DNA of 36,378 nt from the IMG/VR virus record IMGVR_UViG_3300033143_005799, positions 1 through 36,378 of that record; one strand, 5' to 3'. A program made the translations under genes and the position numbers. This stretch comes from a virus. The notes under the pieces are model-generated. The model was not told the DNA's origin. It searched no databases and saw only the letters and a program-made list of their open reading frames with translations. Each line of letters begins with the position of its first letter. Positions within the stretch are counted from its first letter, which is position 1. Positions 7,126 to 26,996 of this stretch are shown here, one piece after another.

Positions 7126-8777
7126 TGCGCACCTCCGGTAATTTTCTGAGCTGTTGCACTGGCGACAGACGCCTCGGCACCATCTTTCATAGCGGATGCT
7201 AAGTCTCCCGCCTGCTGAGTTTGCGCCATCTTGGCCTGTTGCGCTTGGCGTTGCTCGTCTTCTGCTTTAAGTTTCTCATCAGATTTCAGATACTTGGCTG
7301 GCACACCCATTCGCAATGCTATATCTCGCAGTGCATCGTCCCATTCGATGGATTCTATTATTTCTGGTTTAACAGGAGCAAGGCGTTCCATTATCGTCAT
7401 TAACTGTTGGAACGCATTGACAGCACCCATCTTCTGACTGCGGGCCAGTGGACCTAAATAATCGACTTCAAATTCACCTTCCTTCTCAGTAACAATTGAC
7501 GGCGGTTTCGGCAACCGACCTTCACGAGAGAGGATGTTGAAACTACGGTGTATGAGTGGGTCAAGGAAATCTGATTGAATACGGAATAATGCGGGACCCA
7601 ATAGGCGCTGCATTTGCTCGTATCGTACTTGGACCTCGGTTGCTGTCATGCGATCATTCATCGGCAATTCAAGCTGTTCGACATAGAACGCCTGCCGGAT
7701 AGCCGCGACAAGATCAGCCTTGATCAATTGACTAACATCAAATCGGGCACCCGATTCAAACGGTTTCATGGCGTCCATATCACGCACGACAGTCTCGCCA
7801 CCTGGGCCAAGATCGACATCTCCAATAATACCCCTCTGCAATGTCAAAATAGATGGGTCAATAACCTTAGCGCCTGCGTCAAGTATCTGACTGACCAATC
7901 GGTTGAGGGTGCGGATATCAGGCAACGAATTCAATGCTGGCGAGAATCCGAACTTGGAACCCGTCATTCGTCCCCAACGCAGCACATACGCGGGCATCTC
8001 GTAGTATCCAGTTTCCTGCTCTGTGAGATCGACAGAGCCGTTGATTAATATAAATTGTTCTTTGAAAGGTCGTTTATTAGCTGCAAGCAAGGTTGATGTG
8101 TCGGCATCTTTGTTATCTTCATTGAGGCGGACAACATGGATGACCGTGTACTTAGTGTTGGCGCTGGATGATGACAGACCTTGGTTGCGAATATTCTTTG
8201 GACATTTAGTTGGGAATTCCAACATGAGTTGTTGAGCGGTGTACCGTTTCTCACGGTACACACCGATCAACTTGCCTGCAAAATCTTCTTCAAAATAACT
8301 TTCTCTGGGGAACGATGCTCGGAATTGGAAAGACTGATCACGCGGTTCGTACTCGTGGAACATAAGCGTGGTGCCAAAACTCGTGAGATCGAGATAGGTT
8401 TCGTTCACTTCCAGATTGAAGTTCGATTCTTGTATGGTATAGAAAATCTTTTCTTGACAAGCCTGCAGCCATGCTGCCGCTGTCGTATCATCGTTCAGTG
8501 CAGCCTGTTTGAAGTTGAGTCCGAACCAGTCTGTCGCGGGCGAGGTGAGCCCAGAGTGCAGTGCCGCTGCCAGCGATTGTGCGGCTATGACTGCCGTCGA
8601 ATCATACTTATCTTCGAAGGTACGCTCGATACTGTTCTCATCGTCGTGCGTTTCATACATTCGACCACGACCCGGCACAACCAGTCTTCCGATTTCTTCC
8701 CATTCACTGTTGACATTGCTACGCTCAATCTTCAATGACTCGTGTCGTTTGACTAATTGACCTGGTGTTAGCGCCAT
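7122..8777 (-). CDS. Portal protein (head-tail connector, T7 gp8-like)
   Basis: 551 residues, normal for the Head-tail connector family. Recognisable segments are RHESLKIERSNVNSEWEEI near the N-terminus, AAQSLAAALHSGLTSPATDW near residue 65, SFGTTLMFHEYE near residue 130, and a C-terminal third with MTATEVQVRYEQMQRLLGPA. The protein forms the dodecameric ring at the capsid vertex that docks terminase and the tail. The start at 8777 overlaps the terminase frame by ten bases. The last 50 residues are Gln/Ala-rich and likely disordered. Confidence 0.93.
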   Translation of the reverse strand: MALTPGQLVKRHESLKIERSNVNSEWEEIGRLVVPGRGRMYETHDDENSIERTFEDKYDSTAVIAAQSLAAALHSGLTSPATDWFGLNFKQAALNDDTTAAAWLQACQEKIFYTIQESNFNLEVNETYLDLTSFGTTLMFHEYEPRDQSFQFRASFPRESYFEEDFAGKLIGVYREKRYTAQQLMLEFPTKCPKNIRNQGLSSSSANTKYTVIHVVRLNEDNKDADTSTLLAANKRPFKEQFILINGSVDLTEQETGYYEMPAYVLRWGRMTGSKFGFSPALNSLPDIRTLNRLVSQILDAGAKVIDPSILTLQRGIIGDVDLGPGGETVVRDMDAMKPFESGARFDVSQLIKADLVAAIRQAFYVEQLELPMNDRMTATEVQVRYEQMQRLLGPALFRIQSDFLDPLIHRSFNILSREGRLPKPPSIVTEKEGEFEVDYLGPLARSQKMGAVNAFQQLMTIMERLAPVKPEIIESIEWDDALRDIALRMGVPAKYLKSDEKLKAEDEQRQAQQAKMAQTQQAGDLASAMKDGAEASVASATAQKITGGAQ

Positions 8778-9574
8778 GATGCACCTCGTTTGACGTTATG
8801 TTTTTTGACATGGCCGCTATTAGCGGATCGGAATGTACTGGCTTCATTATCGGCAGATGCGTAGATCACGCCGTCACCTGAATCGGGTGATCGACCTAAT
8901 CGTTTTTTCAAATCATCTTTGCTTTCAACTTGGATGATATTACCCTCGTTTACTTTGTATCGCGGGGCGCATAAATCTGCCAATAGCTTGCCGTCAGGTG
9001 GTAAGCATACTCGCGAATTGTATTTGGGATCAAGTGATTCTCTGAATTCCCAGTGGAGTTTGGCCCGTTTGTTTTTGAATTTAAATTTACCGGATTGATC
9101 TCGCCCAGGACCTTTCTCGTTGCCCGTGATCCCTTCCACCTCGATACCCTGTGACACCAACCAGTCCATTGCAGATGTTCCTACACCAATGGCATCGATG
9201 TTAACAGGGGCGAGATTCCTGCGAATCTTTATCACCTCTGTGCCTAATGTGGGACCGTCGGGAACCAAGTGTCCAGGTATCCTTTCGATCTTCCCATAAA
9301 ATTCAGAGTCGTATAGGGGTGCGATGGTCGAATCATCTTGTCCACCGCGGCTGGCATCAACGCCCACAGCCGTCATTGTCGGTATGTAGCTGCCGGCATA
9401 GGGCTCGTTAGTGTATAAAATTTTATTCGCCGGATGGTCAACCCATCGACGTTGTGCAGCGCGCACCCATTCGGACGGGATTACCTGCCACGAATCATCC
9501 TCTTGACCTGAGGTGAAGTCACCATACAGCATCTGTGATCTGAGTGGTTCTGGCAATGCCTGCAGGGTGGCCAT
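8768..9574 (-). CDS. Large terminase, nuclease part of a frameshifted gene
   Basis: 268 residues carrying the RNase H-like nuclease: GVDASRGGQDDST (Asp73), NIDAIGVG (Asp127) and SGDGVIYA (Asp234) supply the three acidic positions. The segment starts (M)ATLQALPEPLRSQMLYGDF, which in intact relatives lies inside the protein just after the ATPase domain, so the ATG at 9574 is probably not the natural start. The frame is displaced relative to the ATPase part at 9519-10379, which ends its conserved sequence at SRTFIP. The linker that normally separates FIP from RYMATL is missing. Confidence 0.82.
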   Translation of the reverse strand: MATLQALPEPLRSQMLYGDFTSGQEDDSWQVIPSEWVRAAQRRWVDHPANKILYTNEPYAGSYIPTMTAVGVDASRGGQDDSTIAPLYDSEFYGKIERIPGHLVPDGPTLGTEVIKIRRNLAPVNIDAIGVGTSAMDWLVSQGIEVEGITGNEKGPGRDQSGKFKFKNKRAKLHWEFRESLDPKYNSRVCLPPDGKLLADLCAPRYKVNEGNIIQVESKDDLKKRLGRSPDSGDGVIYASADNEASTFRSANSGHVKKHNVKRGASWR

Positions 9575-10379
9575 GTAACGGGATGAACGTGCGGGAGATC
9601 GGCGTGATCACCTCATTAAGCGGGTCGTCAATTTCTTCCTGCGTAGCGACCCGAGGTTTACCTTCCTTGAACATCAACTTGGCACCCGATTCGACAGCAA
9701 TATCCTTGCCGTCAAACGAATAATACCAACGCAACTCGCCTGGTTCAGCGGGATCAGGGTGGTGGGGATCAAGCCATGCGCCCCAGAACTGGCGAACCCA
9801 GTCGCCATCGGAGTTAGTTGGTGGGTTTCCGGCGCACATGACGCGACATCGCTGGCCTTGCACCGTGGTTCGCAGCCAACCCATCGTGAATCGGAATTGG
9901 AATTCAAAAAAGTTAGATATTTCATCGTAGACAATCAAATCGTGAGGACGACCTTGGTACTTAGTTTCATCGCCAGGGTTGGGCATGGACCCGAATTCCA
10001 CTTGTCTGTCCGGCAGTCGCCAAATTTTTTCCTGACCATTGAACCCGTTACGCCCGCCAAGCAACTCTGTCATCCGATCAAGGATGCCGGTCAGCTGCGT
10101 GGCCTCACGACGGAAGATAATCGACTTGAGGTGCTCGGTGAGCGCCATGCCGACGCATAAATCTGTTTTACCGCCGCCCGCCGAACCCCCGTAAAACACA
10201 ATATCGGCTTCCGATTCCATTGCTTGGGTTTGTGGTCCGGGTAATGGTGCCCATATCTCTTGGGTTTCAAGTAGGAATGAACTGAGCTTCGCCTTCTCGG
10301 CGGAGGGCAGGGTGCGTATGAATTCTTCGCGCCGCTCTTTTGGCAATGCGTTCAGTTGTTCGTGGAATTCATCCATCAT
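9519..10379 (-). CDS. Large terminase, ATPase part of a frameshifted gene
   Basis: 286 residues; ATG at 10379 overlaps the small terminase stop (ATGA). The packaging ATPase motifs are clear: Walker A GGSAGGGKT at residues 64-72 and Walker B DLIVYDE at 147-153, then CAGNPP as the coupling motif. Conserved sequence continues to NEVITPISRTFIP, after which the reading is out of frame (about 20 unrelated residues and a stop). The nuclease domain follows in the next frame. The enzyme drives DNA into the procapsid and cuts the concatemer; as read here it would yield an ATPase fragment without nuclease. Confidence 0.85.
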   Translation of the reverse strand: MMDEFHEQLNALPKERREEFIRTLPSAEKAKLSSFLLETQEIWAPLPGPQTQAMESEADIVFYGGSAGGGKTDLCVGMALTEHLKSIIFRREATQLTGILDRMTELLGGRNGFNGQEKIWRLPDRQVEFGSMPNPGDETKYQGRPHDLIVYDEISNFFEFQFRFTMGWLRTTVQGQRCRVMCAGNPPTNSDGDWVRQFWGAWLDPHHPDPAEPGELRWYYSFDGKDIAVESGAKLMFKEGKPRVATQEEIDDPLNEVITPISRTFIPLHGHPAGIARTTQITDAVW

Positions 10380-10905: not shown

Positions 10906-13374
10906 CTATTCATTGGTCGTCAACTGGGCAGTGATCCGCAGTGGTGGCATGATCCAGCAGCGAGCAGGTGCTGCCCCCTTGGCGCGTCGCTTCAATAACG
11001 TGCGGGCTTGCCCGGTCAATCGCTGCAAAGGTTCGGTGAGCGGGTTGCGGCCTTTGATATCCACCTTGAATCCACAGTGAGCTGCCACCTCACCAACCGT
11101 CATGGGTACAGTGCAGGCCTCTTGCCAGTTGAAGGTGTTGAGTAAAATTTCTTCTTCCATCTTGATTTCACGGAAATCGTCGTTGTGATTCTCAAGGGCT
11201 TTGATTTCTTTTTGGTTAAGTAAATACGGATGACCGGCGTCGAGCATGGTCTGCAGCTGCGCCCAAAACTGTGCACGCCCGTCACCGTGCATCAACTTGT
11301 CCAGTGTCGGGACATCCACGGATTTCACCTCCACTGGCCAGAACCGCGTGTTACCGGTTGAGTCCTGTAGGAAGTCAATCCGGTTGACAGTCGCCCCGTA
11401 CACGGTACGTCGCTGCCATCTGGACTCCTTTGCGGCGTAGGGCAGGCGAATCTCGTCCTGCGTATTGGAGATGTGCGCCTTCAATGCCGCAATATCGGAC
11501 TTTTTGAAGGTTGCATCCAGCTCGCCGAGCTCCACAATCCAGTATTTTACCGCCTTTTTCAGTGAATCTTTGTCGTGGACCTCTAAATGCAGACCTTCTC
11601 CGAAGCTAGTTGGGGGTGTGATCGCCCTAAAAAAGCTTGTTTTACCGCAATATTGCGGGCCTGCCAGCACCAAAACACCACGTGGCGGGTTGTTTCCGTA
11701 GTTACCGAGCACCTTGAGGGCCGATACCAGCCAGGTTGTGACCAGTTTATCGCGCATATCCGTCGTGCCGTGCGCCAGTTCAAGCGTATTGAGCACCGAT
11801 GTGAGGCGGTCAGTGCCGTCCCATGTCGTATTGGTCAGCATATCGATGGTCGGGTGAAACGAATTCTGTCCGCCCACCAAGCTGACGTACTCATCAACGC
11901 GAGCCGAGGGCATGCCGTACTGTTCCAACATGTCACGGATGAACGTGCGTTGATCATTGGCAGCGGTATCGGTCAACCACTTGGCGCCGGGGATGTAGAT
12001 ATCATAATCGTGTGACATCACGTTGTGTTTGATGCCAATGTTGTGATGGTTCATCACCCCCATGAAATTCTGAGTCGTGGCACGGATTGCTCCGTTGTCA
12101 CTGAGGTGCGCGAAGACAGGACCTGAGTTGTGCGTCGAGGCTTGCATTGCACGAGCAGTTGTCTCCTGCAATTTCAATTCTTTGTCCACAGCTTTCGCGC
12201 CGATCCCCATCCATTTCAGGTGATCTTTCAGCTTCGACATCGCCACGCCATGTTCCAGCGGAGGCAACGTAAGTGACGCGGCCATGTACTCTCTGGCAAT
12301 CCCGAAATCGTCAATACTCTCAATAAGAGTGAGGTCGGGTAGCTCGCCAGTGGTGGCTATTGGATTGTCGTGATCAAGAGTGTTCGTGTGGTCAGGTATT
12401 GTTGTTTGTTGTCCGGCTGAGGCGAAATGGTTGGTTATTTCTTCCTGACTCATCTTCCGATTACTCCGCGCCTTACTGCAGCTGTACTTCCACAGCCAAC
12501 TCACCGCTGACTCGAACGAACCGGGACGTCGCTTGAACGCCACCGATGAAGGTCCTGGGTAGTGGGAGAGAAACGTCAGCACCTCATCATCCTGCAGTCC
12601 AAGGATATACAGACGAGAAGCAAGTCCCATCAATGCAGCACTGCCGTCACCTTGGTAGTTCGTGGCATTGCCGTGCAGCGCGAATTCCTGCAGGTGTTGC
12701 GGGAGTTGATTGCACGGATGCTCATTGAGCAGTAGCGGTGCGGGGAGTAGGTCCGGTTGATCTTGAGATATATCAATAATGTTGGACGTTGCCCATTCGT
12801 CCAACACTAAGTGAAGTGGCTGTGGTAACTCCGGGATGTGTTCGAGCGGATTGAGGCTGTCTTCCGGCCAGTGGTACGCTTGGTTGTTGACCACCGACGG
12901 GGCCGCGACAACATACGCATTCCCCGACCGGATATCAATGCCACCCTGCGAACCCTTATTGGTGGCGTTGTGGAACGGGGTCTCTCGGTTGGCGGGATGG
13001 GTATAGAATATATGCTTGCCACCGCTGCCAGAGGTAGCTGGTTGGGCGATTGTATTGATATCAAGACTGAGATTATTGTAGAGGTCGCGAAAAGACTCAA
13101 GGCCATCTTTACCATCCTTTATGTCGAGGTCGATTATTGTGAAGTTGTTGTCAGCCACCAACGCGATGTTGGCATTGGGGGTCAGTGTCCACCATTGAAT
13201 TATCTGTAACGGGTCTTGGGTGGCGTAGGTTGTCCAGCTGCCAGCGAGCATGGGCATCTTCGAGTTGGGTTGTAGCGGAAACACCCGCGCGAATTGACTG
13301 TAATAAATTGCCGCTTTCTCAAGCGACATGTTGTTGACATTGCCGTTGGGGGTGGTATTATCTTTCTTAATCAT
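10906..13374 (-). CDS. Primase-polymerase / VapE-type helicase replication protein
   Basis: 822 residues with two recognisable modules. Residues about 20-190 are a bifunctional Prim-Pol domain: WTTYATQDPLQIIQWW, the metal-binding IIDLDIKDG (Asp82, Asp84) and SGSGGKHIFY (His121). Residues about 490-720 are a virulence-associated E (VapE) helicase-type ATPase: Walker A GPQYCGKTS at 572-580, Walker B-like WIVELGELD at 612-620 and ATVNRIDFLQDSTGNTRFWP with the sensor Asn664 and Arg finger region. Such proteins open origins and prime DNA synthesis. Its ribosome site sits in CAACCAGAGGCA, the element also found before early genes on the other strand. It is the first gene of the otherwise structural operon and borders the repeat array, fitting an initiator role. 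Confidence 0.88.
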   Translation of the reverse strand: MIKKDNTTPNGNVNNMSLEKAAIYYSQFARVFPLQPNSKMPMLAGSWTTYATQDPLQIIQWWTLTPNANIALVADNNFTIIDLDIKDGKDGLESFRDLYNNLSLDINTIAQPATSGSGGKHIFYTHPANRETPFHNATNKGSQGGIDIRSGNAYVVAAPSVVNNQAYHWPEDSLNPLEHIPELPQPLHLVLDEWATSNIIDISQDQPDLLPAPLLLNEHPCNQLPQHLQEFALHGNATNYQGDGSAALMGLASRLYILGLQDDEVLTFLSHYPGPSSVAFKRRPGSFESAVSWLWKYSCSKARSNRKMSQEEITNHFASAGQQTTIPDHTNTLDHDNPIATTGELPDLTLIESIDDFGIAREYMAASLTLPPLEHGVAMSKLKDHLKWMGIGAKAVDKELKLQETTARAMQASTHNSGPVFAHLSDNGAIRATTQNFMGVMNHHNIGIKHNVMSHDYDIYIPGAKWLTDTAANDQRTFIRDMLEQYGMPSARVDEYVSLVGGQNSFHPTIDMLTNTTWDGTDRLTSVLNTLELAHGTTDMRDKLVTTWLVSALKVLGNYGNNPPRGVLVLAGPQYCGKTSFFRAITPPTSFGEGLHLEVHDKDSLKKAVKYWIVELGELDATFKKSDIAALKAHISNTQDEIRLPYAAKESRWQRRTVYGATVNRIDFLQDSTGNTRFWPVEVKSVDVPTLDKLMHGDGRAQFWAQLQTMLDAGHPYLLNQKEIKALENHNDDFREIKMEEEILLNTFNWQEACTVPMTVGEVAAHCGFKVDIKGRNPLTEPLQRLTGQARTLLKRRAKGAAPARCWIMPPLRITAQLTTNE

Positions 13375-13400
13375 TCAGATGCCTCTGGTTGGTTACGGTA

Positions 13401-13437
13401 AAGGCCTCTCTCTGTTTACGCGGTGAGGGGCTTTTTT
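13401..13437 (+). terminator. Terminator-like hairpin upstream of the replication gene
   Basis: AAGGCCTCTC (13401-13410) pairs with GAGGGGCTT (13425-13433) with one bulged G, followed by TTTT to 13437 on the plus strand. It would stop rightward transcription. Read on the minus strand, the same hairpin falls in the leader of the Prim-Pol/VapE mRNA, about 25 bases before its start. Confidence 0.55.
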
Positions 13438-13496
13438 ACGTCTGTAATAAAATAACTCTCAATAGCTCTTGTCGGGTAATTCCTTAACAGTCTCAG

Positions 13497-13525
13497 ATAA
13501 TAGTTTGTTTGGAAGGAGGGTGCAA
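13497..13525 (-). promoter_or_regulatory. Possible late-operon sigma70 promoter
   Basis: On the minus strand TTGCAC (13525-13520) and TATTAT (13502-13497) are separated by 17 bases. The -10 matches five of six consensus bases but the -35 only three. It would start transcription about 115 bases before the Prim-Pol/VapE gene. Weak by sequence alone. Confidence 0.35.
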
Positions 13526-13700
13526 CACTTGTTTTCAGTGGCTGTGGCGGGGATTTCTTTTGTCTATACAATTTGTCCGTACAGGATTTTTTAAATTTTT
13601 GAGTGTATCGGATGGTGCCTTTACGCGTGAATCCGCGATTGGGGGCCTACCCCCTTGCGATTCGAGCGGTTATCAGGATAAACACCAAAAACACAAAACC

Positions 13701-13709
13701 TGTGGATAA
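13701..13709 (-). promoter_or_regulatory. DnaA box
   Basis: The plus strand reads TGTGGATAA, the complement of the perfect bacterial DnaA box TTATCCACA. A single nine-base match can occur by chance, but its place beside the repeat array and initiator gene makes host DnaA binding plausible. Confidence 0.55.
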
Positions 13710-13797
13710 GTATGTCTGTATGACAAAATAGCCCACATAATAAGGCCTCATAATCAGAGAATGCCAGTACGGCGGGCTCTCAAGCGTTCATGCTATT

Positions 13798-13814
13798 TAA
13801 CATAATGTATGTTA
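13798..13814. promoter_or_regulatory. 17-base dyad, candidate operator
   Basis: TAACATA-ATG-TATGTTA is a perfect inverted repeat with 7-base arms and a 3-base centre. Size and symmetry suit a dimeric repressor such as the ribbon-helix-helix-like early proteins, but no binder is known. Confidence 0.45.
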
Positions 13815-13833
13815 TGCGCATAAGTCGTGCATT

Positions 13834-14300
13834 CTGTAACACTTCAACCATTGTGGTGCTGTATTCCTGGCCGTAACACCATCGAGGTTAAAAGGCATAT
13901 CTCATCCTCACCCGGTAGCATATCTCCTCTCCCGAATACCCACCTGGTTACAGGATAGCGCACCAATTCACCAACAAAGCCTGGTATTTACCGGTTTTCT
14001 GTAACACTTGTAACGCTTGTAACTGTTACATTCTATTGTTTCTACCCTAAATAAAACACTAAACCCTATTTCGGCTACACTATATCCACTTTACTCTACT
14101 AAGTGTTACAAGTGTTACAGTGTTACAGGGTATTATGAATCAAGGGGTTACACTGTAACACTTAGGCCCCTGTAACACTAGCTCATACTGTTACACGTTG
14201 TACGGATAAAAATTACTTGGGTATTGTACCGACAAACGGCACCTTTTAAGCTTGTGTTGTCCATACAATACCTCTATTATCTAATCATACCGTAACACTT
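13834..14300. repeat. Array of CTGTAACACTT-type repeats (iterons)
   Basis: Full or near copies of CTGTAACACTT lie at 13834, 13999, 14153 and 14170, with a further CGTAACACTT at 14291. Shorter copies (TGTAACG, CGTAACACC) occur at 13872 and 14009. Inverted copies run head to tail at 14101-14130 (AAGTGTTACA, AGTGTTACAG, TGTTACAGGG), with others at 13946 and 14189. A 13-base palindrome TGTAACTGTTACA lies at 14018-14030. Copies are both direct and inverted, as at origins or multi-operator control regions. The last copy lies only 22 bases before the first early gene. Confidence 0.85.
14252..14280 (+). promoter_or_regulatory. Possible early promoter
   Basis: TTGTGT (14252-14257) and TATTAT (14275-14280) are 17 bases apart, 43 bases before the first early gene. 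A second weak pair, TTGTAC (14198) and TATTGT (14222), lies just upstream with 18-base spacing. The -10 matches five of six, the -35 three of six. A repeat copy lies just downstream of the -10, where a bound protein could block transcription. Confidence 0.4.
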
Positions 14301-14322
14301 AATCAGAAAGAGGCGATACACA

Positions 14323-14523
14323 ATGAATATTAAAGGCTGCTTTATACTTACTAATGAAGATGCACCAGACCAACACCCTATAGTCATCGGTGGTGTTGAG
14401 TTCGATGTTGATAACTTCAATAACATGCACTGCACCATTGCAAATATCGCCGATGAGTTTGGTATAACCTTCTGGAATGCCCACGACACAAGCGGCAATT
14501 TCCTAACAACTTCCGAGATATAA
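14323..14523 (+). CDS. Early protein, unknown
   Basis: 66 residues, first gene of the rightward operon, with an AAGAGGCGATACACA leader before ATG. The sequence is acidic and mixed (IKGCFILTNEDAPD, VIGGVEFDVDNFNN) with no membrane segment or known motif. Being first in line and next to the origin region it should be among the earliest expressed. Confidence 0.6.
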   Translation: MNIKGCFILTNEDAPDQHPIVIGGVEFDVDNFNNMHCTIANIADEFGITFWNAHDTSGNFLTTSEI

Positions 14524-14526
14524 ATA

Positions 14527-14625
14527 ATGAGTACTTACCAAATATTACGCCGCGACTGGATATCAAGCGGCGCGTACTACCACGAATCATTTAATGATTA
14601 CCTAATCCGTAACGGGTGGAAATAA
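14527..14625 (+). CDS. Very small early protein, unknown
   Basis: 32 residues (MSTYQILRRDWISSGAYYH at the N-terminus), three bases after the previous stop and joined to the next gene by TAATG. Tight packing between two genes is the main support; there is no strong ribosome site, so translation may be coupled. Rich in Tyr and Arg. No family recognised. Confidence 0.45.
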   Translation: MSTYQILRRDWISSGAYYHESFNDYLIRNGWK

Positions 14626-14786
14626 TGAATATCAATAAACTGCTTAGAAATATACGACGCAATCCACTTGTATATGACAACGGTGAAAAGGGTGCACAAT
14701 GTCGCCGGATTATCTGTAAGTGCAAAAACCGTTTACATCACACGGCGGCATATAAGCGAAATTCTATCGTATTAACAACCGATTAA
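14625..14786 (+). CDS. Small basic early protein, unknown
   Basis: 53 residues, starting inside the previous stop (TAATG). It is strongly basic (MNINKLLRNIRRN) and has three cysteines (CRRIICKCKN), which could bind metal or nucleic acid. A host-interacting early protein is possible, but nothing more specific can be said. Confidence 0.45.
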   Translation: MNINKLLRNIRRNPLVYDNGEKGAQCRRIICKCKNRLHHTAAYKRNSIVLTTD

Positions 14787-14820
14787 ATAACCAACTACCA
14801 TTAATAAGAGGCATAAGACA

Positions 14821-15693
14821 ATGAAAACAAAAGGTAATAATGATGCAGTGTGTCACGCGTGGGCTAGTCAATCACAAGAAAGTATGTCTAACACTGGCGG
14901 CTCTTTATACTTCGAAGATAACACTATATACAGTTATGGTGCACATTTTCCGATAGCCACTCATGTCAATAATGACGTCGTGTTGTTCACAATACACACT
15001 TATTCAGTGACGACCGGCGCGCATATGTCGAAAGTACGACAAGCTATAACACATAAAACGGTTTTTTATGTCGACCATGCTATACCAGATATGACAGGCG
15101 AATATAATCATGCTGCAAACCTAAAAAGCTATGGTTCGCGTTTTAAAGAGATATTAAATAAAGCTAGTCGGGCGCGCTCTAATAAGTCGTTTTTACTAGA
15201 ATCGGCCATTAATTTGGCAAACGAGGCGAATTATTACGCATCATATTTTGGCATTAGCTGGATTATAGAAACTGACAATATAGACCTTGACTCAATCAAG
15301 GTGGAACTCGACAAGCTTAAGGTTGAAGCGGTGAAAAAGGACAAGGTCCGTAAAAAGCAGCTGCTTATCGATAACCAGGAAAGAATAGCACAATGGCGGA
15401 AAGGTGAGAACGTGCACCTACCTTATGATGTTGGCTTTCTGCTACGTATTAACAATGAAAGAATAGAAACGAGCCAGGGCGCACATATTCCGTTTGAAGA
15501 TGCACTTAAATTATGGCCCATGATTAATCGAGCAAGAAAAAACAACACCACATACAAGCCGGACGGGTATAAGGTCGGCTATTATAATCTGAAGTCTATT
15601 AATGAAAATGGTGACCTCAAAATAGATTGTCACTTTATCAAGTTTGAAGAGTTGCAAATTATCGCTAATCAAATGAACCTGAAGGAGTATTAA
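14821..15693 (+). CDS. Conserved phage protein of unknown function
   Basis: 290 residues, the largest of the early unknowns, after an ATAAGAGGCATAAGACA leader. The N-terminus carries the segments VCHAWASQSQ, GGSLYFEDNTIYSYGAHFPI and TYSVTTGAHMSKVRQA. I recognise this opening as typical of a widespread phage hypothetical family (a serine/histidine and YGxHFPI pattern), but not of any protein with a known activity. The middle has a Lys/Glu-rich helical stretch (residues about 170-205). The His and Tyr conservation could mean catalysis or binding; no assignment made. Confidence 0.7.
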   Translation: MKTKGNNDAVCHAWASQSQESMSNTGGSLYFEDNTIYSYGAHFPIATHVNNDVVLFTIHTYSVTTGAHMSKVRQAITHKTVFYVDHAIPDMTGEYNHAANLKSYGSRFKEILNKASRARSNKSFLLESAINLANEANYYASYFGISWIIETDNIDLDSIKVELDKLKVEAVKKDKVRKKQLLIDNQERIAQWRKGENVHLPYDVGFLLRINNERIETSQGAHIPFEDALKLWPMINRARKNNTTYKPDGYKVGYYNLKSINENGDLKIDCHFIKFEELQIIANQMNLKEY

Positions 15694-15695
15694 GC

Positions 15696-15938
15696 ATGAA
15701 TATAACAAGACATGCTTATATTAATACAAGCTCAGAAGCTGGTAGGCCTACAAAGATAGGTTTTGATAGCGAACTAATAACCGCTATCTATAGTTGGACC
15801 AATGGATATGGTAATCCGTCCTATACGTTTTATCTATCAAGTGGGGACTGTTTGTTTTTAGTTGATGACTATGGGGCTATGAATGACGTTTATCATATTA
15901 GCCCGCGTTTTGTATCACGCAAGAAAGACTTATTCTAA
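15696..15938 (+). CDS. Early protein, unknown
   Basis: 80 residues with a good AAGGAG site nine bases before ATG and two bases after the previous stop. The protein looks like a small beta-rich domain (SYTFYLSSGDCLFLVDDYG). No motif recognised. Confidence 0.6.
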   Translation: MNITRHAYINTSSEAGRPTKIGFDSELITAIYSWTNGYGNPSYTFYLSSGDCLFLVDDYGAMNDVYHISPRFVSRKKDLF

Positions 15939-16814: not shown

Positions 16815-17107
16815 GCACATCTCGCGGGCTTGGTCGTTATCATTATATGAAGAAAGTGACGCCGGCGTGGGCAAACGCTGCAGCCATGAAACGAATATAC
16901 GACAGAGCCGCTTTATTGAATAAGGAAGTGGACCATATTGTCCCACTCAATAGCCCAATAGTTTGCGGCTTGCATTGTGAGGACAATATGCAAGTATTAA
17001 CGTCTTTGGAAAACAGTGCAAAATCAAATCGTTGGTGGCCAGATATGCCAAACGAAAATCTGGATTTATTCGGTATTGCAGAATGCGAGCAATATAATTT
17101 GTTCTAA
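16811..17107 (+). CDS. HNH endonuclease-like protein
   Basis: 98 residues. The core EVDHIVPLNSP, then VCGLHCEDNMQVLTSLEN and SAKSNRWW matches an HNH/McrA-type fold: DH supplies the first His, the Asn in EDNMQ and the C-terminal LENSAKSN complete it. Small HNH proteins can nick or cut DNA in packaging, replication or homing. It is a free-standing gene within the early operon and overlaps its neighbour by four bases (ATGA), so homing is possible but not shown. Confidence 0.75.
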   Translation: MSTSRGLGRYHYMKKVTPAWANAAAMKRIYDRAALLNKEVDHIVPLNSPIVCGLHCEDNMQVLTSLENSAKSNRWWPDMPNENLDLFGIAECEQYNLF

Positions 17108-17112
17108 CAACC

Positions 17113-17133
17113 ATTTAGCAACCAAGAGGCAAC
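17113..17133 (+). promoter_or_regulatory. Recurring early leader element, copy 1
   Basis: ATTTAGCAACCAAGAGGCAA lies just before the ATG at 17139. The AGAGG core is the ribosome site, but identity extends well beyond it to other copies at 17474, 18284 and 18565. Confidence 0.75.
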
Positions 17134-17138
17134 AGAAA

Positions 17139-17480
17139 ATGGCAACAATTGACGATATATTAGAAGCAGCTGAGATGATGAACAACCAACCGGTCCCAAA
17201 ACCAGAGCCGTTTGGTTTAACATCTCACATGATGATGGGTTACCGGGTGGTAGAAAACCCCTACATGCCGGACAAGGTGCCTGTTATAGAACTTAGCAAA
17301 TCCGTCACGGTATCTGATGAGGTCCGTGAGCAGTTCGACAAATGGGCACTGGATCTATTTGGCAGCACAACCAATGTACTTATGACCGATGAGTGTATTT
17401 TTATGAGTGCTGGTACGTTCCGGGCATTTAGAGAATCGGAATACATGCGCAACGGCCATACAAATATGGACGCAATTTAG
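17139..17480 (+). CDS. Early protein, unknown
   Basis: 113 residues; the start at 17139 is preferred over an upstream one because it follows the recurring leader. The N-terminus is acidic and helical (MATIDDILEAAEMMNN), followed by MMMGYRVVENPYMPDKVPVI and a C-terminal helix region with FDKWALDLFG. The last codons share DNA with the next leader copy. No known family. Confidence 0.6.
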   Translation: MATIDDILEAAEMMNNQPVPKPEPFGLTSHMMMGYRVVENPYMPDKVPVIELSKSVTVSDEVREQFDKWALDLFGSTTNVLMTDECIFMSAGTFRAFRESEYMRNGHTNMDAI

Positions 17481-19353: not shown

Positions 19354-19412
19354 GAGTCCTCGCCGGTAATAATTGTTTTAACACTTTTATTAGATGAGCC
19401 GGACGAGGACTC
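19354..19412 (+). promoter_or_regulatory. Long leader hairpin at the predicted 5' end of the mRNA
   Basis: GAGTCCTCGCCGG (19354-19366) pairs with CCGGACGAGGACTC (19399-19412) with one bulged A. Inside, TAATAA and TTATTA can extend the stem. The ribosome site of the next gene (AGGAAGG, 19421-19427) lies outside it. A hairpin starting within a few bases of the transcript's 5' end is the kind known to slow decay from that end. Confidence 0.8.
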
Positions 19413-19432
19413 AACAAATTAGGAAGGCTGAG

Positions 19433-19606
19433 ATGTCAGATAATGAAAGTAAAAAAGAAGTGTTGGCGCTAATATCGGCTCGCACCTCTGTTGATGAAAA
19501 AGCCGCATTTGTAGAAAAATGCGAACAACTTAAAATTGTACCGAGCACAGTGGTCCGCATGTTAGTGGACCGTTGGGTAACCGGTGAAATCAAATTGGAG
19601 CTATAG
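19433..19606 (+). CDS. Ribbon-helix-helix-like regulator
   Basis: 57 residues; ATG 19433 is chosen because AGGAAGG lies six bases before it, whereas the upstream in-frame ATG at 19394 sits inside the hairpin. ISARTSVDEKAAFVEKCEQL and IVPSTVVRMLVDRWV fit a strand-helix-helix repressor like Arc or ParD-type proteins. As first gene behind the promoter with repeated GTCATA sites, self-regulation is an attractive inference. Confidence 0.6.
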   Translation: MSDNESKKEVLALISARTSVDEKAAFVEKCEQLKIVPSTVVRMLVDRWVTGEIKLEL

Positions 19607-20042: not shown

Positions 20043-20296
20043 TGAACGGTTACGAATGTTTCTTGCCCACCCTGTTAATCGGCAGGACGAACGATCTCGG
20101 GACCATTCCTATTGCAGTAAAGGTTGACAGTGACAAGGTGACCGAACAGATGGCAAACGATCCAATGTCAGCTGAGAGCAAGTTAGAATTCTCAGCGTTG
20201 CTTCCAGATCATCTGCAAGCAATGGGTCCTGTCATTGGTGTTGAAGCAATCTATGAGGTGGTACTCAATGAATCAGTCATCCAACGAATCAACTGA
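20042..20296 (+). CDS. Early protein, unknown
   Basis: 84 residues, start within the previous stop and end overlapping the next gene by 29 bases. Mixed composition with no known motif. The operon position between the basic protein and the nucleotide hydrolase-like gene is all the context available. Confidence 0.5.
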   Translation: MNGYECFLPTLLIGRTNDLGTIPIAVKVDSDKVTEQMANDPMSAESKLEFSALLPDHLQAMGPVIGVEAIYEVVLNESVIQRIN

Positions 20297-20675
20297 GTCT
20301 GACCCTAACGGCAAGGACGCTCACGACCCCGGCGCCAAACTTGATGCAGGGAAACCTCGCATGACGTTGGTGCTCGGAGGTTTTGGTAAAGCATTGCGAG
20401 CTGTTGCTGAGGTCGGCACTTATGGTGCTGATAAATACAGCGATAACGGTTGGATGCAAGTTCCGAACGGCGTTGAGCGATACACCGATGCCCTGTTTCG
20501 TCATATATTCGACGAACAAAACGGACAAGAATTGGACAGCGATACTGAGATGCTACACGCTGCTCATGCGGCTTGGAATGCGCTCGCTCGTCTTGAATTG
20601 AAAATACGTGAAACGGAAGGTGCGGATGATCATTTAACCAGCACCTTTCACCCTTTGGAGGATCACAATGAGTAA
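20268..20675 (+). CDS. dATP/dGTP diphosphohydrolase-like protein
   Basis: 135 residues; ATG 20268 has GAGGTGG before it. The segments KLDAGKPRMTLVLGGFG, AEVGTYGADKYSDNGWMQVP, RYTDALFRHIFDEQNGQEL, and LHAAHAAWNALARLEL are the signature of the phage family annotated as dATP/dGTP diphosphohydrolase N-terminal domain. All-helical, MazG-like nucleotide cleaning during replication is the expected activity, but experimental support is known to me only for the family in general. The gene overlaps the next by eight bases. Confidence 0.75.
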   Translation: MNQSSNESTESDPNGKDAHDPGAKLDAGKPRMTLVLGGFGKALRAVAEVGTYGADKYSDNGWMQVPNGVERYTDALFRHIFDEQNGQELDSDTEMLHAAHAAWNALARLELKIRETEGADDHLTSTFHPLEDHNE

Positions 20676-21894
20676 TCACGCACCACTAGCACCCTCTGCC
20701 TTCGGGCGTTGGGGCAAATGCCCAGGCTCTGTTGGAGCGAACGCGCACATCCCTGACACATCAAGCCCTGCTGCCCAGTGGGGCACAGATGCTCACCAGA
20801 TTCTTGAGGATCGCGCACTACTTCGATACAAAGGTAAGCCGGTGGTCGGCGAATACGACTTCGGTGATGTTGAAGAAAAACAAGCAGTAGCGCAGGCCGC
20901 GCTTGATTACATTGAAGAAATCTTCGATGACGCCGAAGCGAGTGGTCTAAACCCTAAGATTTACATCGAAGAAAAAGTGTACACCGAACTGTACACCAAG
21001 CGTAAAGACATTTACGGATCGGCTGACATCATTGTCGTAACAGACACGTGGTGCGAGATCATCGACCTGAAAGCAGGTTCCGGCATATTAGTGATGCCAG
21101 ATTCTGGTCAGTTGAGAATCTACGCACTGGGTATGCTGGCGAAGATCAAAGGTGAAGGTGCGACCGACGTTGAGATGGCAGCAATACGAGAAGTCCGTGC
21201 CACCATCGTGCAGCCCCGCATCCCCCACCCAGACGGTATCGTGAGAACTGAGGTTTACACGATACCGAAGTTGTTGGCATGGAATAAGACCGTACTAATC
21301 CCTGCAGCAAAGGCAACAGACGGTCCGGGCACCAATCGCATCGCTGGCGAAACACAATGCCAGTTCTGTGGTGTGAAAGGTCAGTGTCAAGTGCTGCAAA
21401 CCGAGGCCACTAAATTCGCTATGTCGGTATTCGAAGATCAGACCGACAAAACATTCGACGACCTGACCTCCGCGAAACCGGAAGACATGGATATTGGTAA
21501 ATTGGTAGCCATTATTGAGGCGACCCCACTGATCACAGGTTGGTTGAAAGCAGTCAATGAGTATGGTATGACCCGTTGCAAGAACCGTGAAGAAATGCCG
21601 GGCTACAAAGCGGTGCGTTCCGGCGGTCGCAACAGCTGGGTCAAACCTGTTGATAAAATACTGGAAGAAATCAGCAAAGGCGCTGGTATGATTCCTAAAA
21701 AGTTATTGACCAAGCAGGTGGTCATCACTGCCCCACAGGCATTGAAATTACCTGACTTGAGCGATAAACAACGTGCGCGTATGCAAGCGTTAATCGGGAA
21801 ATCAGAAGGCTCGTTGGCGTTGGTGCCAGTTACCGACAAACGAGACGATGCTTTCCCTCCTGTTGTATTTAACGATGTGTCTTTCTTAGACTAG
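20668..21894 (+). CDS. DUF2800 Cas4/RecB-like nuclease
   Basis: 408 residues with the DUF2800 layout. The N-terminus LAPSAFGRWGKCPGS contains Cys18; GTDAHQILED carries His43; GSADIIVV (Asp120) and EIIDLKAGSG (Asp133, Lys135) make the PD-(D/E)xK active site; Cys231, Cys234 and Cys240 (CQFCGVKGQC) with Cys18 would hold an iron-sulfur cluster, as in Cas4. Such proteins are 5'-3' exonucleases that produce single-stranded ends for recombination. The pairing with DUF2815 two genes later is common in phages and suggests a phage recombination system. Confidence 0.88.
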   Translation: MSNHAPLAPSAFGRWGKCPGSVGANAHIPDTSSPAAQWGTDAHQILEDRALLRYKGKPVVGEYDFGDVEEKQAVAQAALDYIEEIFDDAEASGLNPKIYIEEKVYTELYTKRKDIYGSADIIVVTDTWCEIIDLKAGSGILVMPDSGQLRIYALGMLAKIKGEGATDVEMAAIREVRATIVQPRIPHPDGIVRTEVYTIPKLLAWNKTVLIPAAKATDGPGTNRIAGETQCQFCGVKGQCQVLQTEATKFAMSVFEDQTDKTFDDLTSAKPEDMDIGKLVAIIEATPLITGWLKAVNEYGMTRCKNREEMPGYKAVRSGGRNSWVKPVDKILEEISKGAGMIPKKLLTKQVVITAPQALKLPDLSDKQRARMQALIGKSEGSLALVPVTDKRDDAFPPVVFNDVSFLD

Positions 21895-22486: not shown

Positions 22487-23143
22487 TTGGAGAAATGTTG
22501 GATCAAACGTGCTCGCTTGAGCTTCCCAACTTTGTTAGTACCAAAGCCTCCGGCTGATGGTGCTGACCCTAAGTATTCAGCCGACTTCATTCTGGAACCA
22601 GATGCTCCTGAGTGGGCTGAGGTTATGGGCATGATTCAGCAGATGGCGGCTGAAAAATGGGGCGATGCGGCTGGCGGTATCCTTAACATGATCAACCAAG
22701 ATTCGCGACAGCGTTGTTACGGTCAAGGTCACGAGAAGGTTAAGAAAAGTGGCGCGGAAATCGGTCAGGTGTACGAGGGATATGAAGGTAAACTTTATAT
22801 TGGCGGCTCAAGTGCCACACAACCCCAGTTGATCGGCACCGATGCACAACCACTACCACCAACAGCGAACAAGAACGAAATGTTCAATGGCGGTAACTAC
22901 GTGGGCGGCATTCTCAATATCTGGTTACAGGATAACAAGTTCGGCAAAGCAGTACGCGCCGGCTTGACCGCTGTCCAGTTCCTTGAGAAAGGCGAATCGT
23001 TCGGTGTTGTACCAATTGATGCAACCTCTGTGTTCACGCAAGTAGAAGGCGCACCAGGTGCGGCTGCTGCAGCAACTGGCGGCGGAATGCCTGGAATGGG
23101 TAGCATGCCGGGCATGGGCGGGGACGTTGACCCATTGGCGTAA
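22487..23143 (+). CDS. DUF2815 single-strand DNA-binding protein
   Basis: 218 residues. RARLSFPTLLVPKPPADGAD, PKYSADFILEPDAPEW and a C-terminal Gly/Met-rich acidic tail (GMPGMGSMPGMGGDVDPLA) match DUF2815, proposed to act as phage SSB. The frame closes upstream at TAA immediately before TTG 22487, so TTG is the only long-start option; no strong ribosome site precedes it, and the better-looking GGAG-AAATG there is in another frame. That is unusual and could reflect a low-level start or a sequence error. Confidence 0.8.
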   Translation: MEKCWIKRARLSFPTLLVPKPPADGADPKYSADFILEPDAPEWAEVMGMIQQMAAEKWGDAAGGILNMINQDSRQRCYGQGHEKVKKSGAEIGQVYEGYEGKLYIGGSSATQPQLIGTDAQPLPPTANKNEMFNGGNYVGGILNIWLQDNKFGKAVRAGLTAVQFLEKGESFGVVPIDATSVFTQVEGAPGAAAAATGGGMPGMGSMPGMGGDVDPLA

Positions 23144-23379: not shown

Positions 23380-23568
23380 ATGAGTTTCAGTGAAATTAAT
23401 AGTGAAATATATAAAGCAAGACAAGTTCTTAATGAAGCTGATAATGCCGCCAATCAAATGGCAGCATTATTAAAAGGTAGGTTGAGGAAAGTCTCATCGT
23501 GGGAATTAGCAGCGTTAAAAAAAGAACTTAAAGATTTCAATGCACATACTAAAACGTGGAAAGAATGA
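23380..23568 (+). CDS. Small coiled-coil protein before the polymerase
   Basis: 62 residues; ATG 23380 lies 20 bases after the tRNA-like CCA. It is highly charged and helical (SEINSEIYKARQVLNEADNA, then a Leu-rich second helix), like a two-helix hairpin. ATGA couples it to the polymerase gene, so an accessory role is possible. No strong ribosome site is seen (GGGG at 23370-23373). Confidence 0.55.
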   Translation: MSFSEINSEIYKARQVLNEADNAANQMAALLKGRLRKVSSWELAALKKELKDFNAHTKTWKE

Positions 23569-25313
23569 TGAGATACGTTCTGGATATCGAATGTTACATG
23601 AATTATTTTCTAATGATGTGGATACCGGAAGACGGGTCGGCGCCATTTGTTTTTGAGAAGTTCAATGATGTCGTGACTATCTCCAACATCGACGGTATTG
23701 ATTGGTCAGGTACGTTCATCACCTTCAACGGTTGGGGGTACGATTTCCCGATGTGGGGTGCGTTGTGGGCAGGATTCACCAATGAACAATTGAAACACGT
23801 TTCCGATTCAATCATTAAGAAACGTATGATGCCGTGGATTGTTGAGCGTGAGTTCGGTATCAACATCCCATCATTCGATCACATTGATATCATGCAAGTG
23901 CTACCTGGCATGATGAGTTTGAAGATATACGGTGGTCGGATCAACTCTAAAAAATTGCAGGATTTACCGATCCAACCAGATGCAATCATCACTGATGAGC
24001 AATGCGCCCCGATGCGTGAGTATTGTGCGAACGACTGCAAAGTGACATGGGGATTGATGAAAGAAGTTTCCCCTCAGATTGCACTGCGTGTCCGAATGGG
24101 TGAACAATACGGCCTCGATCTGCGCAGCAAATCCGATGCTCAGATTGCCGAAGCGGTGATTGCTTCTGAATACACACGCAGGATCGGGAAACCTCTATAT
24201 AAACCCGATAATGTTGTGCAAAGTTACCGGTACACGCCACCTAAGTTTGTCAATTTCCATAGTCAACAGATGGTCGATATTCTTGAGAATGTAAAGAAGG
24301 CTGATTTCAAAATAAAAGCATCTAACGGGCAGGTTATCGAGCCGGACGAGATGAAGACTGTTGTGGACATGGGTTGCCAATATCAGATGGGTATTGGCGG
24401 TCTGCATTCAATCGACGGTCCCGGCAGTTTTTATTCAGACGATGATGTCACCATATACGACATCGATGTGGCCAGCTATTATCCCGCCATCATTCTGAAT
24501 GCCGGTTATTATCCAAAGCACGTTGGCTATGAATTCTTGAATATCTATCGTGAGATCGTTGAAAAGCGATTGGCTGCCAAGAAATCCGGCGACAAGGTGA
24601 CTGCCGATTCATTGAAAATCACCATCAACGGGTCGTTTGGTAAACTGGGCAGCATGTATTCAAAAATTTACGCACCTGACCTCATGTTCCATGTGACAGT
24701 AACCGGCCAACTCTGCCTACTGATGCTGATTGAACGGTTCCCAGAGCTAGTCATATCGGCCAATACTGACGGTATTATGGTGGCGATCCCGAAGGATGAT
24801 CTACCAGGAATTGAAAAAATAGTACGTGACTGGGAAATGGAAACGGGTTTTGAGATGGAGTGGAATGCCTACAAGTCGGTGCATCGCCGCGATGTGAACA
24901 ATTATTGTGTGATCGCAGCTGACGGTAAAATTAAGAATAAAGGTGTGTTCAAGCCGAGTGACATCGAGAAGAATCCCGCCAACAATATTATCTACAAAGC
25001 CGTGCGTGAATATTTCCAGCACGGTACACCGGTTAGTCAGACGATTCTCGATTGCACCGACATCACGGAATTCTTATCACTTCGTACCGTAAAAGCAGGT
25101 GCCAAGTGGGGGAATGAGATATTAGGAAAGTCAGTGAGATGGTATCACTCGTGGCTGAGTGCCAACTGCATCGAATATCAGAGTAACGGGAACAAGGTGC
25201 CCCTCAGTGATGCCAGTGTACCGTTGATGGAGATACCGGACACGTTTCCGCAGGATGTGAATCACCACTGGTACATTGCTGAGGCGAATAAATTGTTGGG
25301 GAAGATGAAGTGA
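23565..25313 (+). CDS. Family B DNA polymerase with 3'-5' exonuclease
   Basis: 582 residues from ATG 23565 (GGAAAG upstream; ATGA overlap). Exonuclease motifs: Exo I VLDIEC (Asp7, Glu9), Exo II ITFNGWGYDF (Asn55, Asp60), Exo III YCANDC (Tyr153, Asp157). Polymerase motifs: A DVASYYPAI (Asp301), B KITINGSFGK (Lys351), C SANTDGIMV (Asp402). Family B motif C is usually DTD; here the first Asp is Asn400, while the metal-binding second Asp is kept. At 582 residues it is compact compared with the 800-900 typical of cellular members. It should be the replicative polymerase, acting with the Prim-Pol/VapE protein. No terminal protein gene is recognised. Confidence 0.9.
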   Translation: MMRYVLDIECYMNYFLMMWIPEDGSAPFVFEKFNDVVTISNIDGIDWSGTFITFNGWGYDFPMWGALWAGFTNEQLKHVSDSIIKKRMMPWIVEREFGINIPSFDHIDIMQVLPGMMSLKIYGGRINSKKLQDLPIQPDAIITDEQCAPMREYCANDCKVTWGLMKEVSPQIALRVRMGEQYGLDLRSKSDAQIAEAVIASEYTRRIGKPLYKPDNVVQSYRYTPPKFVNFHSQQMVDILENVKKADFKIKASNGQVIEPDEMKTVVDMGCQYQMGIGGLHSIDGPGSFYSDDDVTIYDIDVASYYPAIILNAGYYPKHVGYEFLNIYREIVEKRLAAKKSGDKVTADSLKITINGSFGKLGSMYSKIYAPDLMFHVTVTGQLCLLMLIERFPELVISANTDGIMVAIPKDDLPGIEKIVRDWEMETGFEMEWNAYKSVHRRDVNNYCVIAADGKIKNKGVFKPSDIEKNPANNIIYKAVREYFQHGTPVSQTILDCTDITEFLSLRTVKAGAKWGNEILGKSVRWYHSWLSANCIEYQSNGNKVPLSDASVPLMEIPDTFPQDVNHHWYIAEANKLLGKMK

Positions 25314-25588
25314 AAGAATCAAAAATAGAAAAAGAAGTCTCTGATTACGCCAGATCAAAGGGCTTCATGGCTCGTAAATTTACAAGCCCCGGACATCGAG
25401 GTGTCCCGGATCATATTTACTTCGGGGATGACGGGTTCATGTTTATGATCGAGTTCAAGAAACCAGGCGGAAGACTCAGTCCAGCTCAGATCAGGGAAAT
25501 CGAGGCACTGCAGCGACGCGGCCATTTGGTATTCCTTGTGGATAATTTTGAATTTGGTAAGGGGATTATCGATGGTTTTGCTGAATAA
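25310..25588 (+). CDS. VRR-NUC nuclease
   Basis: 92 residues starting at GTG inside the polymerase stop (GTGA). IEKEVSDYARSKGF, HRGVPDHIYF, FMIEFKKPGG and QIREIEALQRRGHLV line up with the virus-type replication-repair nuclease: the Asp in PDH and Glu-x-Lys in EFKK form the PD-(D/E)xK centre. Stand-alone phage VRR-NUCs are next to SNF2-type helicases in many phages, as here. Likely acts on branched DNA. Confidence 0.9.
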   Translation: MKESKIEKEVSDYARSKGFMARKFTSPGHRGVPDHIYFGDDGFMFMIEFKKPGGRLSPAQIREIEALQRRGHLVFLVDNFEFGKGIIDGFAE

Positions 25589-26996
25589 ATCTGATCTCCA
25601 CGATTATCAAGTAAAGACAATCGAGCACATGCTCGCCCACCCTCAGTCGATGTTGTGGCTGGATATGGGGCTCGGGAAAACGATTTCCGTACTCACTGCG
25701 GTCGATATCCTGCTCGATCAGATGAAAGTGTACGGTGTACTGGTTGTCGCGCCGCTGAGGGTCTGTCAGACCGTGTGGCGGCAGGAAGCAAAGAAGTGGG
25801 GACACACTAAACATCTCACCTTCTCGTCGATCACAGGCACCAAAGATGAGCGTATCAGAGGATTGATGACACCCGCTGATGTTTATCTGATTAATTACGA
25901 TAACCTAGCATGGTTGCAGGAAGAAATTGAATTCCGATTCCTGCGTAAAGGTAAACGCCCACCTTTCAATATGTTGGTGCCCGATGAGATATCGAAGTTG
26001 AAAAACACCCGCACCCGACAAGGTGTGGCCAGGGGCAAAGCGATGTTGAAGTTGTTACCCTATCTACCGTACCGCTCAGGATTAACCGGCACGCCGGCGA
26101 GCAACGGTATGCTGGACCTGTTCGGACAATTCCTCGTTATCGATGGTGGCAAACGGCTCGGCACCTCACACTCAGCGTACCGCTCAGAATATTTTTATCT
26201 GACAGAATATCGCGGCACCAAGTGGTTTCCGTTCGAACGGGCGAAAGAACAGATCGCCAACCGAGTCGGCGACATCACCATCAATATGGATGTCGAGGAT
26301 TACATCGACATGCCGGAAAAAATATTCAACGACATTTATGTGGACCTGCCCCCGAAGCAGCGGATGAGTTACGATAAAATTGAAAAAGAAATGATGGTGG
26401 AGCTGGACTCCGGCGCGACCGTTGATATATTCAATGCCGCCAGCAAGATGAATCGCTGCCTGCAGTTTGCCAATGGTGCGATGTACTTGGCACCAGGTGC
26501 GCCGGATTGGGAAAATGTGCATGACGCCAAACTCGACGCTTTGGAGGACATTGTTGAAGAATCAGCAGGCCAACCGATCCTCGTGGCCTATGAATTTCAG
26601 CACGATGCCCATAAGATATTAAAAAAATACCCCGACGCCGTGTGGCTCAGTTCCAAAACCTCAGAGGCCGATTTCATAAAGGCGCTGGAAGACTGGAATA
26701 CGGGCAAACTCACCATGATCATTGGTCACCCTGCGAGTATGGGGCATGGTATTGACAGATTGCAGCACACTGGTCACATACTGGTGTTTTACGGACTCAC
26801 TTGGTCGCTGGATTTGTACTTGCAGACCATCGCCAGGCTGTGGCGTCAAGGTCAAGGGCATGCGGTAATGGTTCATCGAATATTGACACGAGGGACTGCC
26901 GATGAAATCGTTGAAATTGCATTGGGGATAAAAGCCGATGACGAATCCAGTGCCAGAGAAGCCATTGAACAGTACAGAACGGGGAAGGGGTTATGA
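25572..26996 (+). CDS. SNF2-type DEAD-like helicase
   Basis: 474 residues; ATG 25572 has AAGGGG nine bases before it and overlaps the nuclease gene by 17 bases. Motif I QSMLWLDMGLGKTISVL, motif II VPDEISKLKN (DEIS in place of DEAH), motif III GLTGTPASN and motif V-VI MGHGIDRLQHTG, QTIARLWRQGQGH are those of phage SNF2-like ATPases. DNA translocation or branch remodelling with the VRR-NUC partner is the likely role. ATGA couples it to the tiny gene that follows. Confidence 0.88.
   Translation: MVLLNKSDLHDYQVKTIEHMLAHPQSMLWLDMGLGKTISVLTAVDILLDQMKVYGVLVVAPLRVCQTVWRQEAKKWGHTKHLTFSSITGTKDERIRGLMTPADVYLINYDNLAWLQEEIEFRFLRKGKRPPFNMLVPDEISKLKNTRTRQGVARGKAMLKLLPYLPYRSGLTGTPASNGMLDLFGQFLVIDGGKRLGTSHSAYRSEYFYLTEYRGTKWFPFERAKEQIANRVGDITINMDVEDYIDMPEKIFNDIYVDLPPKQRMSYDKIEKEMMVELDSGATVDIFNAASKMNRCLQFANGAMYLAPGAPDWENVHDAKLDALEDIVEESAGQPILVAYEFQHDAHKILKKYPDAVWLSSKTSEADFIKALEDWNTGKLTMIIGHPASMGHGIDRLQHTGHILVFYGLTWSLDLYLQTIARLWRQGQGHAVMVHRILTRGTADEIVEIALGIKADDESSAREAIEQYRTGKGL

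Follow-up and report, generated by a model that had tools for sequence, protein, structure and literature searches.

A predicted iteron origin of replication between divergent operons of a phage encoding a Prim-Pol-VapE protein

What is the role of a dense array of short direct and inverted repeats lying between two divergent operons of a phage, and which protein reads it? The array belongs to IMG/VR record IMGVR_UViG_3300033143_005799, classed as linear, all 36,378 bases of which were analysed and are here called the window. A sequence-only reading had placed the repeats at 13834-14300, which fits their positions, and had offered two roles for them, origin iterons or a multi-site operator controlling both strands; the former is supported by the comparisons below, and the latter fares less well, a different repeat, TTGTCYRTACAA, being the better operator candidate. 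To judge from sequence comparison, the array is very probably the phage's origin of replication, with iterons of the form AAGTGTTACA that would be bound by the Prim-Pol-VapE protein encoded beside them. The iteron reading is well supported because of the identity of this neighbour, the two-sided layout of the repeats round an AT-rich core, and the recurrence of that layout in further phages and VapE loci. The window also holds structural genes for a portal (PF12236), a capsid (PF19821), a terminase and tail proteins, and the genes that matter for replication are arranged as follows.

10906-13374, minus strand: Prim-Pol plus VapE-type helicase, 822 aa, the proposed initiator, with a C-terminal winged-helix-like domain
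13375-14322, about 950 bases: noncoding region with the repeats, bounded on one side by the minus-strand gene 10906-13374 and on the other, from 14323, by early ORFs that run rightward
20668-21894, plus strand: exonuclease of the early operon (phrog_69)
22487-23143, plus strand: Gp2.5-like single-strand-binding protein (phrog_112)
23556-25313, plus strand: phage DNA polymerase (phrog_1252)
25310-25588, plus strand: VRR-NUC protein, in the replication module to the right of the array
25536-26996, plus strand: helicase (phrog_62), in the same module

Elsewhere in the early operon, 20235-20675 encodes a dATP/dGTP diphosphohydrolase N-terminal domain (PF18909, E 9.9e-28), which might have a bearing on nucleotide pools or modified DNA. 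The large terminase is represented by two overlapping ORFs within 8768-10379, of which 9519-10379 aligns with the central part of terminase profiles and 8768-9574 has no Pfam match; either the gene is split or the sequence contains an error.

The repeats are concentrated far beyond expectation. Exact TGTAACAC occurs eight times in the window, against a mean of 1.10 and a maximum of 3 in 100 whole-window shuffles, and seven of the eight copies lie at 13835-14178, the other being at 23303. Within the noncoding region these seven compare with a mean of 0.09 and a maximum of 2 in 2,000 Markov-1 shuffles, and when one mismatch is allowed there are 14 non-overlapping sites (mean 1.48, maximum 6), which bears out the dense array of direct and inverted repeats originally described. 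The three near-consecutive inverted copies it had pointed out are likewise present, at 14103, 14112 and 14120. A 13-base palindrome called perfect does exist at 14018-14030 (TGTAACTGTTACA), its 6-base arms flanking one unpaired base, so that it is not strictly perfect; a second, GTTACACTGTAAC, occupies 14147-14159. The elements of the array are these.

13835-14030, plus strand: left iteron set, TGTAACAC-type copies at 13835, 13872, 14000, 14009 and 14018, pointing to the core
13947 and 14025: inverted GTTACA copies in the left set
14024-14104, about 81 bp, no strand: AT-rich core, the proposed melting region, limits set by eye
14103-14152, minus strand: right iteron set, AAGTGTTACAAGTGTTACAGTGTTACAG at 14103, 14112 and 14120 plus GTTACA at 14147, pointing back to the core
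14153-14195, plus strand: extra copies in mixed orientation, at 14154, 14171 and 14189/14190
14291-14298, plus strand: outlying copy CGTAACAC, 25 bp ahead of the first ORF of the right operon

The iterons, 8-10 bp long with consensus AAGTGTTACA, thus form two sets that flank an AT-rich core and face inward, and in the inner block TGTAACACTTGTAACGCTTGTAAC runs rightward at 14000-14023 and AAGTGTTACAAGTGTTACAGTGTTACA leftward at 14101-14127. The array starts about 460 bp 5' of the initiator gene's start (13374), between the divergent operons. AT content reaches 67% at 14031-14100, compared with 58% in the intergenic region and 53% in the window; the limits of the core were set by eye because the automatic rule, thrown off by the inverted copy at 14025, placed it at 13841-13946 (50% AT) instead. 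Cumulative GC skew, which had been proposed as an indicator of the origin, has its minimum at 11681, a plateau to about 15 kb and its maximum at 27095, and it is weakly informative and given little weight because skew tracks gene direction.

The neighbouring gene had been described as initiator-type, and its domains agree with that description: the 822-aa product matches PF09250 (Prim-Pol) with E 2e-29 and PF05272 (VapE) with E 1.5e-44. A structure model of residues 400-822, built with 50 related loci, has a mean pLDDT of 91.2, and the small helix-strand domain at its C-terminal end is read as a winged helix. By a wide margin the best PDB match of this model is 7pds (Foldseek E 3.9e-18), in which PriRep1, a staphylococcal-island initiator, is complexed with dsDNA under the molecule name 'Similar to D. 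nodosus vapE'. The alignment reaches Z 26.7 over 391 residues, spanning 17-417 of 423, with NrS-1 polymerase next at Z 15.3, and the initiator matches 7pds by sequence as well (E 1.7e-15). PF05272 together with the modelled match to 7pds points to a VapE-type AAA+ helicase with a putative DNA-binding winged helix at its C-terminal end. VapE/VirE helicases are common in phages.

Several known systems can be set beside this locus. Satellite phage P4, which PMC6092414 mentions, has in its alpha protein a primase fused to a helicase, and this protein starts replication at the cognate origin; its helicase is different from that of the window's initiator. As passages of PMC7581432 and PMC6092414 describe them, the Rep helicases of SaPIs recognise iterons through a C-terminal domain, and PICI origins consist of two iteron sets either side of an AT-rich region. 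The window resembles these origins (PriRep1, 7pds; PMC7581432, PMC6092414), so far as those passages describe them, in pairing a VapE-type helicase that has a predicted C-terminal DNA-binding domain with short iterons that adjoin the initiator gene, several of them in noncoding DNA beside it, in two sets around an AT-rich region (here the 81-bp core, its limits drawn by eye). It differs in being a whole phage with its own capsid, polymerase and single-strand-binding protein, the portal, capsid, terminase and tail genes listed above standing against a helper-dependent element that lacks capsid and packaging genes; in the Prim-Pol domain fused in front of the helicase; in the iteron itself, AAGTGTTACA; and in the position of the array, which is 5' of the initiator gene and between divergent operons, unlike SaPI/PICI origins and most of the surveyed loci, where it is 3'. 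Since the array lies about 460 bp 5' of the gene and not directly 3' of it, the locus is classed not as a PICI origin itself but as an origin that would work in a similar way. The SCCmec Cch2 origin, in the passages of PMC7581432 that treat it, is similar in that the Cch2 helicase binds iterons (AAGTG) beside its own operon via a C-terminal domain, and the action of a primase at the same site is counted as a further likeness; unlike the window, it has three 5-nt iterons in a 23-bp direct-repeat region, a D5-type helicase and a downstream position. The PrimQH primase-helicases share with the window's protein, in a comparison of domain order, an AEP primase, a VirE (PF05272) ATPase and a C-terminal winged helix, which their authors suggested might recognise the origin; a candidate origin sequence is readable in the window, whereas the PrimQH passages of PMC5862659 name none. 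A SaPI/PICI-like origin of a VapE-type initiator is a known kind, of which the present locus would be a variant: it lies 5' of the initiator gene, this gene is a Prim-Pol-VapE fusion, the element is a full phage, and the layout recurs widely. Among described systems, the sequence-only reading was aware of none that has this repeat: a literature text search for TGTAACAC and GTGTTACA returned, among the matches listed, no title on phage replication and we found no paper on the repeat, but the octamer recurs in other phages and the layout has been described for SaPI/PICI origins.

Whether the repeat is kept in relatives can be answered at some distance. Scans with the Prim-Pol-VapE protein (one fragment), a 290-aa early protein (none), the exonuclease (none) and the portal (seven contigs of 4-12 kb, none reaching the array by coordinates) yielded no close relative covering the array, and the test of repeat conservation therefore rests on the Pseudoalteromonas phages PHS21 and AL, which are related in the replication module, their polymerases being about 43% identical to that of the window and their primases 41% identical. 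Both carry intergenic arrays near the primase, of TGTAACA type in PHS21 (L003; 17242-17480) and TGTAACC type in AL (L004; around the start of the record), in which pairs of TGTAACATGTAACA and TGTAACCTGTAACC flank cores of 88 and 89 bases with 77% and 83% AT, respectively. With such very regular arrays these two phages of Pseudoalteromonas marina, which can be grown, are good experimental models. By nucleotide search, blastn of 13300-15700 against phages and of the 36-base iteron block against plasmids gave no match, and the inner block at a permissive E-value of 10 retrieved 41 phage records, including Mycobacterium phage Labelle, whose array lies just upstream of a primase/polymerase gene, and Arthrobacter Korravirus and Enterococcus Efquatrovirus phages.

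A scan of IMG/VR for the TGTAACAC motif gave at least 119 stretches, mostly one-strand repeats inside open frames, which were set aside; among the matches listed, 14 of 119 carry two or more copies per strand, against 0 of 27 in a complete scan for the reversed octamer CACAATGT. TGTAAC arrays with an AT-rich core of 77-109 bp adjoin primase or helicase genes in Pseudoalteromonas, Mycobacterium, Enterococcus and DUF927-helicase phages. Apart from PHS21 and AL, core lengths are 94 bases in Labelle, 81 in AL3, 77 in EFRM31, 108 in L127, 90 in L033, 91 in L080 and 109 in L107, these arrays having been located by searching for the motif. In Arthrobacter phage Lucy the iterons have the opposite order and do not match the inward layout, and L012, L026 and L042 hold mixed arrays without the two-sided layout. 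The repeats of L012 and L026 are of TGTAACACAT type, both orientations intermingled. PF05272 was found only in L127 among 28 records searched (28 of the 119 matches listed, mostly noncoding arrays), and VapE is therefore not the general partner of TGTAACAC. DUF927-helicase relatives found by protein extend past the gene in nine of ten loci. The layout is present in every one of these nine, its cores measuring 87-99 bases, and five of these contigs had already come up in the motif scan; in one of the DUF927 loci, L345, TGTAACCA takes the place of TGTAAC. A DUF927 + HTH_56 (Cch-like) helicase with the two-sided iteron layout near its gene was noted in L033, L038, L075, L080, L082 and L340-L349, the two domains being called by Pfam in L033, L080 and L082.

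A broader view comes from 160 VapE loci (80 from IMG/VR and 80 from genomes) that were collected by protein, regardless of repeats. Of the 153 that have at least 500 bases 3' of the VapE gene, 61 carry an octamer in four or more copies in the first 600 bp on that side, compared with 30 of 1,689 control windows taken more than 1.5 kb away, and 27 loci carry one in six or more copies, against 9 control windows; four exact copies are not reached in the other 92. Octamer arrays 5' of the gene, the window's arrangement, are found in 3 of 153, some of the loci lacking that DNA. A scored search, which also took in the window, L127 and four named phages, exceeded the 99% shuffle level in 67 of 159 loci on the 3' side and 7 of 152 on the 5' side. 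Partial redundancy reduces the 74 loci with significant iterons to 55. Six of ten named phages and satellites stood above all 60 shuffles (Javan748, phiFL4A, Javan630, Emery narrowly, Rosalind and StAB), and four did not (Javan518, BK687P4, BV674P5 and mumin6-3). The iterons themselves are lineage-specific, AGGGACAC, AGGTTGGACA, GTGTCTACA and CTGCAACA among others. Both orientations are present in 62 of 63 strong arrays, and strand switches are rarer than when orientations are permuted (289 runs against a mean of 333; 0 of 2,000 permutations), the largest gap at a switch having a median of 91 bases. In 56 of 62 arrays this switch gap has a higher AT content than DNA outside the array, but it exceeds the remaining DNA between iterons in only 38 of 61 (p 0.0016). 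In three phages of Bacteroides, Phocaeicola and Flavobacterium (L334, L335 and L339) VapE genes are present but the DNA 3' of them holds no iteron array, and these phages may have their origins elsewhere.

Which part of the initiator would set the choice of iteron? Across the 55 non-redundant loci, iteron similarity follows C-terminal identity, with the helicase core removed, at a partial rank correlation of 0.11 (0 of 500 permutations), and follows the helicase core, with the C-terminal part removed, at 0.03; the apparent co-variation of iteron specificity with the C-terminal domain is significant but weak. The window and L127 have an iteron in common and C-terminal parts that are only 20% identical, and a profile comparison among the C-terminal regions of VapE, DUF927 and D5-type initiators gave nothing significant. 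The sharing of TGTAAC by unrelated initiators, which came to light mostly through searching for the motif, may therefore have arisen by convergence among a limited number of usable iterons. GTAAC is present in 7 of 53 VapE iterons sampled regardless of motif (mean 0.56, maximum 4 in 1,000 shuffles), although in shuffles the most frequent pentamer, whichever it was, could reach 7 too. It is rather unlikely, though conceivable, that phages of very different hosts with unrelated initiators (VapE, D5-type, DUF927/Cch-type and PriCT-only) have a single kind of origin, built of inward TGTAAC iterons around an AT-rich core of almost constant length, 77-109 bp, a reading weakened by the absence of significant matches among the C-terminal profiles of VapE, DUF927 and D5-type initiators. 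If true, it would mean a shared, exchangeable origin code, with a fixed two-ring geometry older than, or independent of, the class of helicase.

The principal rival is a multi-site operator, in which a regulator on the TGTAACAC copies would switch both divergent operons with no part in initiation, and the location between those operons, with the outlying copy at 14291 near the start of the right one, fits it. A different set of repeats is better placed for such a role, with sites (at most one mismatch) as follows.

13560-13584, plus strand: two tandem TTGTCYRTACAA sites (13560 and 13573), left operator candidates, outside the iteron array
14198-14268: three TTGTCYRTACAA sites, right operator candidates, at 14198 (minus), 14224 (minus) and 14257 (plus)

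Five of the six places of TTGTCYRTACAA in the window are thus here, the sole other being 3691, and they bracket the iteron block, closer to both operons than the iterons are; the region is therefore read as operator outside and origin inside, with TTGTCYRTACAA the probable operator of the divergent operons and better suited to it than the iterons. Similar arrays lie 3' of VapE and DUF927 helicase genes, not between divergent promoters, and a two-sided layout round an AT-rich core would be unexpected of an operator. Nor did any of the 18 early ORFs scanned match a regulator above the Pfam cut-off: below it are a weak RelB match (E 0.004; 19394-19606) and RHH_5 (E 0.07; 17016-17480), which leaves the ribbon-helix-helix proteins once suggested as partners without Pfam support above that cut-off. 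With these points against it, a purely regulatory array is improbable.

A less exclusive arrangement overlaps with the origin reading. In many iteron plasmids the initiator on the origin iterons also represses its own promoter, and here the copies at 13835, 13872 and 14291, outside the core sets, extend toward both operons, so that autoregulation via the outlying CGTAACAC at 14291 may occur; sigma-70-like promoter matches are no more frequent than in shuffles, which speaks against such a double role, and it is best held as a tentative possibility. Iterated inverted sites are also a property of centromere-like sites, and a partition or packaging site could look similar; yet no ParA/ParB-like match appeared among the proteins scanned (part of the ORFs), the terminase ORF is at least 3.4 kb away and the array accompanies primase-helicase genes in other phages, all of which makes this explanation highly improbable.

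Under the preferred reading, that of a replication origin, the C-terminal domain of the Prim-Pol-VapE protein, about residues 740-822, would bind the iterons, helicase rings would assemble on both iteron sets, the AT-rich core would melt and the rings would load onto the opened strands, whereupon the Prim-Pol domain would prime and the phage polymerase would extend the primers; initiator bound to copies close to the promoters may regulate its own operon as well. A candidate recognition site can thus be read beside a VapE-type gene. Dozens of further loci can be read likewise, and the survey places the layout next to VapE and DUF927 genes of full phages too. Origin recognition by VapE-type proteins thereby becomes a simple binding or plasmid question, and more broadly the layout offers a route to phage origins from sequence.
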